Below, in pieces: positions 56,316 through 61,846 of a DNA stretch of 61,846 nucleotides. Position numbers and translations under genes: made by a program. Origin of the DNA: Xinfangfangia pollutisoli. GTDB lineage: Bacteria > Pseudomonadota > Alphaproteobacteria > Rhodobacterales > Rhodobacteraceae. Within the stretch, counting starts at the first letter, position 1; each line of letters starts with the position of its first letter. The stretch lies in contig NZ_JAICBZ010000012.1 in the NCBI RefSeq assembly GCF_020179405.1, forward strand, positions 1 to 61,846. Reading direction: 5' to 3'. The notes under the pieces were generated by a model that saw only the letters and a list, made by a program, of their open reading frames with translations, had not been told where the DNA came from and did not search any database.

Positions 56316-57233
56316 TCAGTGCCCTGCAGCCCTCACCGACCAGCTGTGACCGGGTTCGCCGGCGCGCGGGGCTTCCTTCTGCGCGGCGCCAATCCCAGCC
56401 GCGACCGACCATACCCGCCTTGCGCGCCGGCCGGCCTGTGGAGCGCAGTACAGCGAGATGGTGTAGCTCAGATCGGCTGTCCCTTGCCGGACGGCCAGCC
56501 TGCCGGCGGCCACATCGGCCTCGACCAGCGATTCAGGCAACACCCCGCGCCCCGTTCCCGCAATGCATTGCGCCCTTATGTCGGCAGCCATGCCATGGGG
56601 AACCTCAGAGGTTACCGGAAGCGCCATGCGGCAGGCCGTCCAGATCTGTCCGATATAGGTCTGCGGATGCGAGACATGCAGCGGCATGTGCCTGTCCTGC
56701 GCATCGGGCGGCTCAACGATCACCAGCCTGTCGGCGGCGATATCGGCAGGCAGGAACACCCGGAACGCCGCGTCGATCGGAACGCGCGGATGTCGTGTCA
56801 CCAGCGCAAGGTCGACTTCAGATCGCGTCAACATGCGCGCCGCCATGTCGTGATTGGCGATCCGGGGGGCGAAATGCATGCCCGACAGGCGCTGCGCCAG
56901 CCAGGCCTTGAAATCCGGGAAGATCGCCACCGTCGCGCTGTGCGGCATGACGATGGGGATCCCGCCTTCGCTTGGGCTCCAGGGCGACGAGCCGCCTTTG
57001 AAATGGTCGATCTCGGACAGGATCAGGCGGGCTTTCGGAACGAAATCCTCGCCGGCGGCGGTAAGCGAAACCGGCCGGACGCGCCGGTTGATCAAGATCC
57101 GGCCAAGATAGTCCTCAAGCAGGCGCAGGCGCTTGCTCAGGTTGGACTGGGTGGTGTTCCGCCGCTCGGCCGCAAGCGTCAGGTTCAGCGTCTCGGCGAC
57201 GCAAAGGAAATCCCGCAAATGATCAATGTTCAT
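56316..57233 (-). CDS. LysR family transcriptional regulator downstream of the beta-lactamase
   Basis: This 305-residue LysR protein has an N-terminal helix-turn-helix (RDFLCVAETLNLTLAAERRN, then TTQSNLSKRLRLLEDYLGRI) and an effector domain with TGRGVLPESLVEADVAAGRL. It is 48 bases after the class D beta-lactamase on the same strand. LysR regulators of beta-lactamases (AmpR) are normally divergent, so control of the lactamase is uncertain. The C-terminal 30 residues are Arg/Ala-rich and look poorly conserved. Confidence 0.88.
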   Translation of the reverse strand: MNIDHLRDFLCVAETLNLTLAAERRNTTQSNLSKRLRLLEDYLGRILINRRVRPVSLTAAGEDFVPKARLILSEIDHFKGGSSPWSPSEGGIPIVMPHSATVAIFPDFKAWLAQRLSGMHFAPRIANHDMAARMLTRSEVDLALVTRHPRVPIDAAFRVFLPADIAADRLVIVEPPDAQDRHMPLHVSHPQTYIGQIWTACRMALPVTSEVPHGMAADIRAQCIAGTGRGVLPESLVEADVAAGRLAVRQGTADLSYTISLYCAPQAGRRARRVWSVAAGIGAAQKEAPRAGEPGHSWSVRAAGH

Positions 57234-57281: not shown

Positions 57282-58103
57282 TCATGGCCGTGTCAGTTCA
57301 CCGTCCCCATCCGGCGGGAACAGCGCCCGCATCGCCCCGTCCCGGGCAATCGCACCCGGCGCGCCATCCGGGCGTTCGCTGAACCGGATCAGCCGCGCAA
57401 AGACGATCCGTTCCGATCCCTTTTCCGCCCAGCCGACATACCAGCCAAAGGGTTGGCCTTTCAGCAGCGCGCCGTCGGGACCGAACGGCAGTCCGGCACC
57501 CGTCTTGCCATAGATATGCCAGCCGCCGGCCCGTTCGCCTTGGTCCAGAAGGTCTTTCGTATGCGCGACCGCCGCGGCCGAGACGGGCAGCCTGCCCTCG
57601 ATCATCCGGGTCAGGAAGCCGACCTGTTCGATGGGCGCGATCTGCAGGGACGAACTCAGCCAGGCCTGCGTCAGGCCGTTCCCTTTGCCCTTGTCTCCCG
57701 AAACGTCCCTATTGCCATAATCGAAGGCATCGACATAGGCCGCGAAACGCGCCATCCCGAGCTGCTCGGTGGCGCGCTGCGAATACCAGACCACGGAATC
57801 GCGCATCCAGCTTTCCGGGGTCGTCGCCCGCTTCCATCGCGGGTTCCAGTCGGCATAGCCTTCCTTGAACGGCCATTCCGGCGCGTCCGGTGCGGTGAAG
57901 ATCCCGGCATCGAACGCCATCAGACTGATCGCCACCTTGAACGTCGATGCCGAGGATATCCGCTCGTCGCAAGCCCCCTCGTGGATCAGCGGAACCGATA
58001 CAGCGGGGTTCACCGCGATCATGCAGACCACCTGCTCTTCGGCCAGCGCGGCGGGGGGAAGTGCCAGACCGGCCAGGGCCGCGGCGAGGATCGTCTTGCG
58101 CAT
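57282..58103 (-). CDS. Class D (OXA-type) beta-lactamase
   Basis: This 273-residue secreted protein has a signal peptide (MRKTILAAALAGLALPPAALA). All class D motifs are present: S53-TFK with the acylating Ser and carboxylated Lys, SVV in MRDSVVWYSQ, YGN in FDYGNRDVSG, and KTG in WHIYGKTGAG. Normal family size. It should hydrolyse penicillins; the spectrum cannot be told. AGGAAGGA precedes the ATG at 58103. It is divergent from the YdcF/Mur-ligase genes, so a link to envelope or peptide antibiotic chemistry is conceivable. Confidence 0.94.
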   Translation of the reverse strand: MRKTILAAALAGLALPPAALAEEQVVCMIAVNPAVSVPLIHEGACDERISSASTFKVAISLMAFDAGIFTAPDAPEWPFKEGYADWNPRWKRATTPESWMRDSVVWYSQRATEQLGMARFAAYVDAFDYGNRDVSGDKGKGNGLTQAWLSSSLQIAPIEQVGFLTRMIEGRLPVSAAAVAHTKDLLDQGERAGGWHIYGKTGAGLPFGPDGALLKGQPFGWYVGWAEKGSERIVFARLIRFSERPDGAPGAIARDGAMRALFPPDGDGELTRP

Positions 58104-58499
58104 GAGGGGTCCTTCCTGCCTTCTTGCCTGCCCGCCAGATACGGCCGCATGGGTCGGAAAGTCCAAGTCATCTTCCGACTTCTCGCGCGGCAATCCGGCA
58201 TGATCGGCATGTCAGGACGCCCAGCGCGCCCCGCAAGCCCGGCAGATTTGCCGAACGCGCAAAAATACCTGGCCAGACCAGCGGTTTCAGGACCACGTCG
58301 CCGCGGCGGGCTCCCGCACCATTGCATCAGCCGCCGCAGCCGCCACAGGGCACGGGACCAAGGCCCTTTGCCGGCAGATGCGGCGGCAGGGGGCGGGTCG
58401 GACCGGCGCCCCCGCCCCCCGCCGTTTTCGATTGCCCCGGGGTGGATATCGCGTAGGGTCTGCCCCCTGAAAGGCCTCCGCAGGAGCAAGGGACGCGGC
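58104..58499. promoter_or_regulatory. Divergent intergenic region between beta-lactamase and ydcF-like gene
   Basis: This is about 400 bases. An inverted repeat GTCGGAA (58153-58159) / TTCCGAC (58173-58179) with a 13-base spacer lies about 50 bases upstream of the lactamase start and could be a regulator site or hairpin. GC runs near 58385-58425 can form strong stems. No frame here looks like a gene. Confidence 0.4.
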
Positions 58500-59063
58500 A
58501 TGGATCCATATGACAGCCGCGCGGCCATCAGCGCCTTCCTGTTCAAGAAATGCCGGCCGGAACCTGTGGATCTGGCCTTTGTCCTGTGTAGCCCCTCGAT
58601 CAGCAGCCTTCAGCCGGCCATCGCGCTTTACAAATCGGGGCTGGCCCCAAAACTGCTGATCTCGGGCGCGGGCACGGCCGTCAGCGGGTCGGTGGAATGG
58701 GCCTATTACCGCGATCACGCCCTGGCCTCGGGCGTGCCGGAAAGCGCGCTGCTGCTGGAAAAGGCCGCCCGCAATACCGCCGAGAACGCGGCCTTCGGCG
58801 CGGCGCTGATCGAGAAGGAACTGGGCTGGGCGCAGGTCCGCCGTCTTGCTGTCTGCGCCAAACCCTTTCACATGCGCCGCGCGATCATGACCCTGCGCCG
58901 CCATGTCCCGGCCGATGTGCGGCTGGTGGCCCAGCCCCCGGACGACCCCGGCGATCTGTCGGCCGACAGCTGGTGGCAGACCGCGCAGGGCCGGCAGCGC
59001 ATCTTCGCCGAACTGGGCAAGATCAGCGAATATGCCCTGAAAGGGGATCTGGGCGATGTCTGA
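58500..59063 (+). CDS. YdcF/DUF218 family protein
   Basis: This 187-residue DUF218 (YdcF/SanA/ElyC type) domain protein has FVLCSPSISSLQPAIALYKS, APKLLISGAG, ESALLLEKAARNTAENAAFG (the conserved ARNTxEN) and AVCAKPFHMRRAIMTLRR. Family members are linked to envelope and peptidoglycan or lipid-carrier homeostasis, and YdcF itself binds S-adenosylmethionine. No signal peptide is seen, so it is probably cytosolic like YdcF. The last 8 bases overlap the start of the Mur-ligase/adenylation gene, which implies a common function. AGGAG lies 13 bases upstream of the ATG. Confidence 0.9.
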   Translation: MDPYDSRAAISAFLFKKCRPEPVDLAFVLCSPSISSLQPAIALYKSGLAPKLLISGAGTAVSGSVEWAYYRDHALASGVPESALLLEKAARNTAENAAFGAALIEKELGWAQVRRLAVCAKPFHMRRAIMTLRRHVPADVRLVAQPPDDPGDLSADSWWQTAQGRQRIFAELGKISEYALKGDLGDV

Positions 59064-61846
59064 CCGGGCCCGGCTGCACCTGATCGGCGTGGGGGGAAGC
59101 GGCATGCTGCCGCTGGCGCTGCTGCTGCGGCAGGCGGGCCATATCGTCACCGGCAGCGACGACCTTTGCGCGCCGGCACGTCTTGCCCTGCTGCGGGATC
59201 AGGGCGTCACGGTCCTGTCGGGCGCCGATCCGGCGCTTGCGCGGGCGGCGGACTGTGTGGTGGCAAGCCCGGCCATCCCCGAGACCCATGTGGAACGGCG
59301 CGCGGCGCGGCGTGCCGGCATATCGGTCAAGACCCGCGCCCGGATGCTGGCCGAGCTGATCGCCGACCGACCGGCGATCTGCGTGGCGGGCAGCCATGGC
59401 AAATCGACGGTCACGGCGATGCTGATCCACATCCTGCGCGCGGCAGGCCAGGCTGCAGGACAGACTGCCGGACAGGCTGCGGGACAGGACGATTTCGGCT
59501 ATATGCTGGGCGCCTCGTTTGCCGATCCCGGCCTGGCCCCCGCGCGGCTGGGCGCGCCGGGCGCGCCCTTCGTCACCGAAGCCTGCGAAGCCCATGGCGC
59601 CCTGGCCCAGTGGCGGCCCGCGCATGTCGTGCTGACCAATGTCGATGACGATCACGCCGATCATTATGGCGGGCCGGCCGCGCTGCGGCGCGCCTTTGCC
59701 GATCTTCTGTCGCGCCTGCGGCCAAAGGGGCGGGCCGTGGCCTGCGGGGATGACCCGCAGGTCATCGCGGCGCTGCGGCAGGCGGGCTGTGCGGCCCTGA
59801 CCTATGGCCTTGGCGAGACGGCGGCGTTGCGCGCGGTTCCGGATCGGGCGGGGGGCGCCAGCGTCTTCCTGAACGGGGCCAGGCTGGGGGCGCTGGCTCT
59901 GGCCGTTCCGGGGCGCCACAACCTGCTGAATGCGCTGGCGGCGCTTGGAATGGCGCTTGGCCTTGGCATCGGGTTCCAGACCGCGGCGGGCGCGCTGGCC
60001 GGTTTTCCCGGCATCGCGCGGCGGTTGCAGCGCCTTGCCCCGGACAGCCAGCCACGGATCTTCGACGACTTCGCCCATCACCCGACCGAGATCGCAGCCG
60101 CAATCGCCGTTCTGCGCGAGACGACGCAGGGCCGGCTGATCGCCGTGCTAGAGCCGCAATTGCACAGCCGCGTCACGCGCATGGCCCAGCGCTTCGCCCA
60201 GGCCCTGTCGGCCGCGGACCGCAGCTATATCCTGCCGGTCGCGGCTCTGGGCGAGGCGGGAAATGGCGATGCCGCGCTGGCCCAGGCCTGCCGGGCCGAG
60301 GGGCTGTCCTGCCAGCCCGTCTCGGGCCTGTCCGAGCTGCTGGCGCGGCTGCGCCAGGATCTGCAGGGCGACGATACGCTTGTCGTCATGGCAGGCGCCA
60401 GCGGTGCGCCGATCGCGCCCTGGCTTGCCCAGGCGCTGACGCGCCCGCCTGCGCCCCTTCCGCCAGCCCCGCCTGCCCCCGCGCCAAACCTGATGATCGG
60501 GGCGCAGCGCCCCCTGCCGCCCGATCTGCTGGCCCTTGTCGCCGGCCATGCCGAACGCCAGCCCATGGCAACCGCCGTCGAAATGGGGCACCGCCGGCTC
60601 AGCTATGCCGATCTGGTCCTGAGAAGCGATGACCTTTCCGCCGCCCTTGCCGCCGCCGGCGTCAGGGCCGGCGACAGCGTCGGCGTCTGCCTTGGCCGCT
60701 CGGTGGACCGGGTCACCGCCTTCCTTGCCATCCTGCATCTGGGCGCCGTCTTCGTGCCGCTTGACCCCGCGCTGCCCGAACAAAGGCTGCGCCACATGCT
60801 GACGACCGCGGGCGTGCGACGGGTTGTGGTGAATGCCGCAAGCCCGGCCCTGCCCGAGATCGGCCTTGGTTTCGTGAATTGCGGCCAGCTGCCGGATCGG
60901 GGCGAAAGGCCCATGCCCGATTGGCGCGCCCTGACAAGGGCCGCGGAGGCCACGGCCTATATGATCTTCACCTCGGGCACGACCGGACAGCCGAAGGCGG
61001 TCGAGATCGCGCGCGGGGGGCTTGCCAATTACGCGGCGGCGGCCTGCCGCCACTTCCAGATCGGCCCCGGCGCCCGCGTCTCGCAGATCAGCGGCTTCGG
61101 CTTTGATGTCTCGATCGGCGACATGGCCATGGCGCTGGCCGCCGGGGCCAGTCTTGTCTATCCCTCGGATGTGCAGGCGATCCCCGGCCCGCCCGTCGGC
61201 CGCTTCATCGCGCAGGCGCGGCTGACGCATCTTTCGCTGACGCCCTCGGCCCTGGCGATCCTGCCGCAGGCCGAGCATCCGCATCTGACCCATGTGATCG
61301 TTGCAGGCGAAGCCTGCCCGCCCGCGCTGGTCGAACGCTGGGGAAAGGGCCGCATCTTCATCAACGCCTATGGGCCGACCGAGGCCACGGTCGAAGCGCT
61401 GTTCGCCATCTGCACCCCGGGCCAGCCCGTCGCCATCGGGCGGCCGATCGACAATATGGGCGCCTGCCTGATGACCGAGACGCTGGCGCTGGCCGCACCC
61501 GGACAGGAGGGCGAGCTGTGCCTGTTCGGGCCCGGCCTTGCCCGGGGCTATCGGCACCAGCCCGACCTGACCGCGCAGCGCTTTCCGGTGGTCGACCTTC
61601 CCGGCCGGGGCCCGACCCGGATCTATCGCACCGGCGACCGGGCCCGACCCGGCGCCGATGGCGCCTTCCTGTTTCTGGGCCGGCTGGACAGCCAGCTGAA
61701 GGTGAACGGCTATAGAATCGAGCCGGACGAGGTCGAGGCGGCGCTGTGCTGCCTGCCCGAGGTGATCGACGCGGCAGTGTCGGGCCTGGCCGCGCCGCCT
61801 TCCGCCGATCGCCTGATCGCCCATGTGGTGATCAGGCCCGGCGCGC
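59056..61846 (+). CDS. MurC-like Mur ligase fused to an NRPS-type adenylation domain (3' end outside window)
   Basis: An uninterrupted frame of at least 930 codons runs to the window edge. Residues 1-460 form a complete three-domain Mur ligase most like MurC/Mpl: LIGVGGSGMLPLALLLRQAG, the ATP loop GSHGKST (residue 112), TEACEAHGALAQW, LTNVDDDHADHYGG, VPGRHNLLNALAALGMALGL, and DDFAHHPTEIAAAI. Residues 463-485 are a Pro/Ala linker. From about 490 a full adenylation domain follows: VPLDPALPEQRL (A2), YMIFTSGTTGQPKAV (A3, residue 635), FGFDVSIGD (A4), NAYGPTEATV (A5, residue 770), YRTGD (A7) and GRLDSQLKVNGYRIEPDEVE (A8). A Mur ligase makes an ATP-driven amide bond on a carboxylate; an A domain activates an amino acid for a carrier. 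In MurC the C-terminal FQPH-type motif is replaced by LEPQLHSR, so the substrate may differ from UDP-MurNAc. A carrier or condensation domain may follow beyond the edge. Confidence 0.93.
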   Translation, partial: MSDRARLHLIGVGGSGMLPLALLLRQAGHIVTGSDDLCAPARLALLRDQGVTVLSGADPALARAADCVVASPAIPETHVERRAARRAGISVKTRARMLAELIADRPAICVAGSHGKSTVTAMLIHILRAAGQAAGQTAGQAAGQDDFGYMLGASFADPGLAPARLGAPGAPFVTEACEAHGALAQWRPAHVVLTNVDDDHADHYGGPAALRRAFADLLSRLRPKGRAVACGDDPQVIAALRQAGCAALTYGLGETAALRAVPDRAGGASVFLNGARLGALALAVPGRHNLLNALAALGMALGLGIGFQTAAGALAGFPGIARRLQRLAPDSQPRIFDDFAHHPTEIAAAIAVLRETTQGRLIAVLEPQLHSRVTRMAQRFAQALSAADRSYILPVAALGEAGNGDAALAQACRAEGLSCQPVSGLSELLARLRQDLQGDDTLVVMAGASGAPIAPWLAQALTRPPAPLPPAPPAPAPNLMIGAQRPLPPDLLALVAGHAERQPMATAVEMGHRRLSYADLVLRSDDLSAALAAAGVRAGDSVGVCLGRSVDRVTAFLAILHLGAVFVPLDPALPEQRLRHMLTTAGVRRVVVNAASPALPEIGLGFVNCGQLPDRGERPMPDWRALTRAAEATAYMIFTSGTTGQPKAVEIARGGLANYAAAACRHFQIGPGARVSQISGFGFDVSIGDMAMALAAGASLVYPSDVQAIPGPPVGRFIAQARLTHLSLTPSALAILPQAEHPHLTHVIVAGEACPPALVERWGKGRIFINAYGPTEATVEALFAICTPGQPVAIGRPIDNMGACLMTETLALAAPGQEGELCLFGPGLARGYRHQPDLTAQRFPVVDLPGRGPTRIYRTGDRARPGADGAFLFLGRLDSQLKVNGYRIEPDEVEAALCCLPEVIDAAVSGLAAPPSADRLIAHVVIRPGA

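Follow-up and report, generated by a model that had tools for sequence, protein, structure and literature searches.

Why would a MurC-type ligase and an adenylation domain of a non-ribosomal peptide synthetase (NRPS) reside on one polypeptide? This question is raised by a gene at the end of a contig (C24) of Xinfangfangia pollutisoli, which we analysed over its entire 61,846 bases (the window) and which belongs to a 4.4-Mb assembly of 188 contigs. We found that the gene continues on a second contig and encodes, in this order, a Mur ligase, an adenylation domain (A), a carrier domain (PCP) and a thioesterase (TE). Its architecture, operon, conservation and catalytic residues were established directly. 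The reading we prefer, with a rough probability of 0.37, is that the protein might be a synthetase of one module whose condensation domain (C) has given way to an ATP-driven Mur ligase, which joins a carboxylate of the muramic acid type to the carrier-bound amino acid.

The initial annotation described a complete three-domain Mur ligase fused in one frame to an adenylation domain, and our analysis bore this out. A single stop-free open reading frame (ORF; 59056-61845, forward strand, 930 residues) runs off the end of the window, and all four of its Pfam domains scored above their cut-offs. The translation also contains, as had been read from it, the P-loop GSHGKST, the DDFAHHPTE motif, the retained A4 aspartate (GFDVS) and LEPQLHSR instead of the MurC stretch. 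Among the NCBIfam models, the second half of the frame matched the amino-acid adenylation domain TIGR01733 (354.6 bits, cut-off 317.4), and the first half matched the MurC model TIGR01082 at 283.7-285.1 bits, under its cut-off of 335.1. The gene comprises the following parts:

59056-61846, forward: 5' part of the Mur ligase-adenylation-carrier-thioesterase fusion, the remainder being L007:2-1201 (Pfam, NCBIfam and the C70 join)
59074-59367, forward: Mur ligase N-terminal domain, residues 7-104, with glycine-rich loop GVGGSGM and GSD (PF01225, 57.9 bits)
59383-59955, forward: Mur ligase central ATP-binding domain, residues 110-300, with P-loop GSHGKST (PF08245, 78.9 bits)
60019-60393, forward: Mur ligase C-terminal domain, residues 322-446 (PF02875, 53.6 bits)
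60064-60084, forward: DDFAHHP in the C-terminal domain (translation)
60148-60171, forward: altered acceptor motif LEPQLHSR in the C-terminal domain (comparison with MurC and Mpl rows)
60394-60525, forward: Pro/Ala-rich linker, residues 447-490, the part with the weakest constraint (ratio of non-synonymous to synonymous change, dN/dS, 0.27-0.52)
60547-61551, forward: adenylation core, residues 498-832 (PF00501, 214 bits; TIGR01733, 354.6 bits)
61770-61846, no strand: 77-bp contig-end overlap common to the start of C70 and the end of C15 (assembly fork)
On C70: AMP-binding_C, carrier (Ser1024) and thioesterase (Cys1180, Glu1207, His1258) (Pfam scan of the C70 part)

The fusion gene is truncated by the end of C24. 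Extending the contig rightward for downstream NRPS domains, as the initial annotation had proposed, yielded both a carrier and a thioesterase: the first 77 bases of contig C70 (L007, 3043 bases) are exactly the last 77 of the window, and the frame joined across them encodes a 1304-residue protein ending in a stop codon. The C70 part contributes AMP-binding_C, a PP-binding domain over the cut-off and a Thioesterase match below the Pfam cut-off. With TIGR01733 and PP-binding both over their cut-offs, the protein has the adenylation and carrier domains typical of an NRPS. Identity to ten relatives was similar on either side of the join, at 58-84% in the 50 residues before the join and 74-90% in the 50 after it. 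Contig C15 likewise ends in those 77 bases, but within a different ORF, and this sharing explains the break of C24 as an assembly fork. The C15 end (L008 10444-10562) matched the last 119 bases of the window at 97%, with 77 exact, and we read the ORF there as putatively of the xanthine-dehydrogenase FAD-subunit type. It is probably a chimeric join at the local similarity that broke the assembly.

The relatives bear on whether the fusion could be a sequencing or assembly artefact. Initially, 13 loci (L011-L023) matched the query over nearly or all of its length; they are assigned to Rhodobacter, Sinirhodobacter, Paenirhodobacter, Pararhodobacter, Falsigemmobacter, Cypionkella, Sphingobium, Rhodobiaceae, Rhodobacterales, Alcaligenaceae and Zwartia. 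The fusion is uninterrupted in 11 of them, at 1274-1329 residues except for L019 (1749 residues), and the frame breaks near the 5' end in L016 and L023. Further searches added L104 (G152), L114 (G475, from another family of the class) and L115, the complete, circular plasmid pAMI4 of Paracoccus aminophilus JCM 7686, on which the fusion is also uninterrupted. L103 was left out of the count because its A-PCP-TE part, as compared, does not differ from that of L021; the count stands at 17 distinct fusion loci including the window. In five pairwise comparisons, dN/dS was 0.19-0.27 for the Mur part, 0.21-0.28 for the adenylation domain, 0.21-0.39 for the adenylation end with the carrier and 0.13-0.31 for the thioesterase, next to 0.27-0.52 for the linker. 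These low values on either side of the linker indicate that both halves are under purifying selection and maintained as working proteins. An artefact might be suspected from the contig end inside the gene, from the 77-bp end common to a third contig and from the two interrupted relatives. We nevertheless rejected it and give it next to no chance, because 14 of the 16 distinct relatives are intact, one of them on a complete plasmid, and selection acts on both sides of the linker. The sequencing error that the initial annotation had named as a possible refutation is thus set aside, and the fusion is confirmed as real.

The predicted structure of the Mur half (mean confidence score, pLDDT, 86.3) superposed at a TM score of 0.88-0.89 on MurC 1p3d, a closed, substrate-bound structure with an ATP analogue and the L-Ala adduct of UDP-N-acetylmuramic acid (UDP-MurNAc), UDP-MurNAc-L-Ala. 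In a tree of the 13 fusion rows with 64 of the 65 Mur-only loci L024-L088 (L060 left out), the fusion Mur domains formed one clade (100/99) on a long stem of 1.25 changes per column. The clade lay nearest to MurC, with weak to mixed support for the join (93/46), and the presumed Mpl rows, which carry an EPRSN motif, fell elsewhere. An assignment as Mpl was rejected on the TIGR01081 score (160 bits versus 388.7), the missing LEPRSN motif and the separate cluster. Nor is the fused ligase the main MurC of the cell, since a separate canonical MurC (519 bits) sits on contig C102 of the same genome.

The catalytic residues of Mur ligases (P-loop Lys, Glu173, His198, Asn292/295, Arg326 and Asp344) and with them the P-loop, Mg and ATP sites were kept in all 13 fusion rows; K116 of the P-loop, E175, E178 and H200 of the central domain are invariant in alignment A1. 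It is very improbable that the Mur part is without catalytic activity and plays a scaffolding or regulatory role: nothing speaks directly for such a role, and both this conservation and the Mur dN/dS of 0.19-0.27 speak against it. The acceptor side is different. In Haemophilus influenzae MurC, His376, Arg377, Arg380, Tyr346 and His348 are believed to contact the incoming amino acid (excerpted text of PMC3060825). Tyr346 is replaced by Phe in 13 of 13 fusion rows, His376 by Gln in 11 and Leu in two, and Arg377 by Leu in 12 and Ser in one, whereas His348 and Arg380 are retained throughout. With three of these five residues replaced, the acceptor is probably other than free L-Ala as bound by MurC.

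In the synthetase half, the ten specificity positions, which we assume to follow the Stachelhaus numbering, read DVGSIAAV/IEK in most members, DTGSIAAIEK in L015 and DVGSVAAIEK in L023. A second code is found in L022 (DAHGMGLIYK) and L114 (DAHGMGFIYK). Code prediction gave no safe amino-acid match for either code; judging from the codes themselves, the two groups probably use different amino acids. A tree made to compare the origin of their adenylation domains had long branches and poorly trimmed outgroups. All 18 fusion rows, of which 17 are distinct, contain the carrier Ser1024 and the thioesterase residues Cys1180, Glu1207 and His1258. Cysteine, which lies here in the motif GGNCQGG, is rarer than serine as the nucleophile of such NRPS thioesterases. 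In the alignment by which Glu1207 was assigned, it stands opposite an Asp of 4zxh, at the position where the acid usually lies, which would argue against a relocated Asp of the SulM/ObiF type. The thioesterases of SulM and ObiF use cysteine and form four-membered rings, according to the excerpted text of PMC11298585; the cysteine in the fusion protein is in itself no sign of ring closure. A condensation domain (PF00668, E 0.001) was not matched in the query, searched in two pieces, or in L012, L019, L022 and L115. The non-ribosomal assembly line of the initial annotation holds as far as a carrier and a thioesterase in cis are concerned, and comes down to a single module instead of several.

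The fusion has one constant partner and one frequent partner in its operon:

58500-59063, forward: DUF218 (YdcF-like) protein, 187 residues, first gene of the operon (PF02698, 63.2 bits)
L007:1204-2412: NagZ-like protein of glycoside hydrolase family 3 (GH3), downstream of the fusion

The DUF218 gene lies upstream of the fusion at 17 of 17 loci. One of these, L114, was detected with the DUF218 profile; the other 16 are the window or came from searches with the fusion or its thioesterase. In the reverse direction, all three DUF218 profile matches in the phylum search adjoin a fusion. The end of the DUF218 gene and the start of the fusion gene overlap by 8 nt in 10 of the 11 loci measured and by 11 nt in L017, and the copies of 13 relatives are 49-87% identical to that of the window. 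Its model (pLDDT 87.6) has E. coli YdcF (3ca8) as the best match in the Protein Data Bank (PDB; TMq 0.63, E 9e-8), and the sequence match to 3ca8 is marginal (E 0.0067).

The GH3 gene follows the fusion at 11 of 17 loci, namely that of the window, eight of L011-L023, L104 and L115. The protein scored 159 bits with the NagZ model NF003740, under the cut-off of 207; beta-N-acetylglucosaminidases of family GH3 are its two best matches in the PDB, and it keeps KHFPGHG...DSH (KHFPGHGRSAKDSHH), which we take to be the GH3 N-acetylglucosaminidase motif. The genome has a separate canonical NagZ (C174, 217 bits) and two genes of the phosphopantetheinyl transferase family. Beyond this core, no ORF matched at two or more other loci among the 14 compared (the window and L011-L023), from which we expect a common metabolite as the donor. 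The P. aminophilus plasmid is annotated with a YdcF family protein, an amino acid adenylation domain-containing protein and a glycoside hydrolase family 3 protein, which is the same operon labelled only by its commonest domains. Next to the operon in the window lie, as separate observations, a class D beta-lactamase (57282-58193, reverse strand; NF000270, 294 bits, over the cut-off of 280) and a LysR regulator (56316-57233, reverse strand), neither of which was found in 19 related loci (tblastn, E 1e-5).

For the donor, the acceptor, the order of steps and the mode of release, we infer the following scheme. The adenylation domain would activate an amino acid and load it onto the carrier at Ser1024. 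The MurC-type domain would use ATP to turn a carboxylate, most probably that of the lactyl group in UDP-MurNAc or a closely related compound, into an acyl phosphate and would couple this to the amino group of the amino acid on the carrier, so filling the role of a condensation domain. The cysteine thioesterase would then free the product, whether through hydrolysis, cyclisation or transfer onto an amine. The DUF218 protein would act as a constant partner whose chemistry we assign to no step, and the NagZ-like GH3 protein, where present, might trim or recycle a beta-N-acetylglucosaminide related to the product.

Several observations weigh against this scheme, and the first concern the donor. 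Apart from single changes in L022 and L114, the glycine-rich loop is retained, and so is GSD except in L019, where it reads GID. However, His70, through which MurC contacts uracil, is missing from 11 of the 13 fusions and present in L022 and L114, and EADESDASF of MurC is replaced by EACEAHGAL or similar in all 13 rows; with these losses, the donor may not be UDP-MurNAc. In Mpl, Tyr stands at the His70 position and UDP is still bound (PMC3060825, in part). Judged by these residues, UDP-MurNAc is a likely donor, not an assured one. The changes, the MurC score under its cut-off (283.7 versus 335.1 bits) and the long stem of the clade could also mean that the donor is unrelated to muramic acid, being another sugar acid, a nucleotide-linked acid or a peptide, so that the cell-wall link is one of ancestry only. 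We find this distinctly unlikely, as MurC with bound UDP-MurNAc-L-Ala is among the closest folds to the predicted model, a NagZ-like partner suits an aminosugar, and no gene that makes another acid recurs beside the fusion at two or more other loci. The initial annotation's link to a carboxylate of the cell-wall type is favoured indirectly, by the MurC fold, the catalytic residues and the GH3 gene, and is weakened where part of the MurC donor site has changed. The GH3 gene itself was not found at six of 17 loci, among which L011 and L019 offer only 2.6 kb and 1.6 kb of downstream DNA; L023 is cut by a contig end in this comparison. Moreover, the two adenylation codes imply that the products differ.

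The acceptor is likewise open to another explanation. Mpl, which has no MurC acceptor motif, takes a free peptide, and an altered site is consequently no proof of a carrier-bound acceptor; the loss of Arg377 would fit an acceptor whose carboxyl is masked, and would also fit a different free acceptor. The chain might therefore hold two consecutive, separate enzymes, of which A-PCP-TE frees an amino acid or a derivative of it and the Mur part ligates this to UDP-MurNAc. Precedents exist in the known MurC-Ddl fusion, whose bifunctional model NF011171 has a sub-threshold match here, and in Mpl, which illustrates how Mur ligases evolve toward larger free acceptors (PMC3060825, in part). We take this possibility seriously and still doubt it, because loading and release without a modification in cis would have no obvious purpose in a two-gene operon, and because of what sits at the Mur position in related synthetases.

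We scanned six A-containing synthetases that had been found through this thioesterase type or the adenylation domain. In three (L116, L093 and L094), a condensation domain precedes the adenylation domain at the place of the Mur ligase. All three have a GGNCQ thioesterase, called as TE by Pfam in two of them, and L116 is 35% identical to the query in the adenylation domain and 37% in PCP-TE. DUF218 was not matched in L116 or L093, the two of these three that were searched. In the other three (L095, L096 and L097), the ORF has an adenylation domain and lacks a condensation domain. Pfam reads L095 as A-PCP-TE, and carrier and thioesterase matches are present in L095 and L096. Since they lack a bond-forming domain in cis, they favour two separate enzymes, and the positional argument for replacement of a condensation domain rests on three of six. 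The Mur ligase thus occupies a place where a condensation domain can sit, and such modules also exist without one.

Some of these relatives, and other genes of the X. pollutisoli genome, have features of their own. L096:3000-6431 (G133) has the order A-PCP-sulfotransferase-TE, with the TE match just under the Pfam cut-off. L116:4804-14619, from Rhodobacter sp. CZR27, is a C-A-PCP-TE synthetase amid glycosyltransferase and polysaccharide pyruvyl transferase genes. In X. pollutisoli itself, contig C64 encodes a stand-alone thioesterase-like protein with GGNCQGG (L099:375-1367; no Pfam match at E 0.1) beside a B12-binding radical SAM protein (L099:1427-2971), and contig C62 encodes an NRPS whose adenylation domain is split by a luciferase-like monooxygenase (L009:122-3379, reverse strand; PF00296, 158 bits).

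In genome surveys, whose counts for the operon and the thioesterase are lower bounds, the DUF218 profile located the operon in at least one of 13 genomes of the genus, at least one of 385 of the class and at least three of 398 of the phylum. The thioesterase search found matches in at least eight of 295 genomes of the family, at least three with the fusion (G000, G046 and G152) and the others with different proteins: condensation-A-PCP enzymes (G200 and G113), A-PCP enzymes without condensation domain (G153 and G133) and a 343-residue frame (G065). The operon is thus rare and patchy and appears mobile, and this distribution together with the plasmid copy suggests horizontal movement. Two fusions have peculiarities of their own. 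That of L019 (Alcaligenaceae) has about 440 extra C-terminal residues (L019:6301-7617) with a PF13524 glycosyltransferase match of 19.8 bits against a cut-off of 25, a further hint at sugar chemistry. Between the fusions of L011 and L020, the synonymous difference is 0.027 in the Mur part and 0.263 in the thioesterase, a ten-fold step, and downstream of the L011 fusion we read a putative IS3-type transposase ORF; recombination or insertion is likely.

The fusion, found in certain relatives of the purple bacteria, points to an undescribed route by which a sugar-acid unit is coupled to an amino acid. The most specific version of our proposal is that a mobile operon of two to three genes uses a new chain-initiation chemistry: the Mur ligase would cap the carrier-bound amino acid with UDP-MurNAc, this precursor would become the starter of a small nucleotide-sugar or muramyl peptide, and the cysteine thioesterase would set the peptide free. 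We regard this version, taken as a whole, as unlikely. If the Mur ligase acts on a carrier-bound amino acid, NRPSs would gain another, ATP-driven route to an amide. A cell-wall precursor would then serve as a non-ribosomal building block, a new class of muramyl-type metabolites could be sought, synthetase engineering would have a new part, and the DUF218 protein would have a testable role. Even on the more modest interpretation, in which the protein is a MurC paralogue that takes a new acceptor, it would be an unusual branch in the evolution of Mur ligases.

Within the titles and abstract openings of the literature searched, which excluded subscription papers and preprints, we found no description of a Mur ligase-NRPS fusion. 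A Mur ligase gene has been reported in an operon with a cyclodipeptide synthase, as separate genes (PMC2922099, in part), and the excerpted text of PMC8949500 has no mention of a Mur ligase, its "MurC" match being an author's name. The fusion is like MurC in the three-domain fold (TM 0.88-0.89 to 1p3d), P-loop, Mg and ATP residues; it differs from MurC in its sub-cut-off score, the replaced Tyr346, His376 and Arg377, and the attached A-PCP-TE. With Mpl (TIGR01081) it has in common DDFAHHP, the loss of FQPHRYSRT and, as far as the excerpted PMC3060825 goes, a probable acceptor other than free L-Ala, whereas the LEPRSN motif of Mpl is not in the fusion, which clusters apart (160 bits versus 388.7). 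SulM (sulfazecin) and ObiF (obafluorin) likewise have a cysteine nucleophile in an NRPS-terminal thioesterase (PMC11298585, in part); these enzymes close four-membered rings, and the Gln-Cys-Asn motif of SulM is absent from the fusion thioesterase (GGNCQGG). The synthetases L095, L096 and L097 have adenylation and thioesterase parts like the fusion and no Mur ligase, and L116, L093 and L094 have the same order of adenylation domain, carrier and cysteine-type thioesterase, with a condensation domain instead of the Mur ligase. MurC-Ddl (NF011171) combines, as does the fusion, a MurC-type domain with a second ligase; its partner is the D-Ala-D-Ala ligase of the same pathway, whereas the partner in the fusion is an NRPS module.

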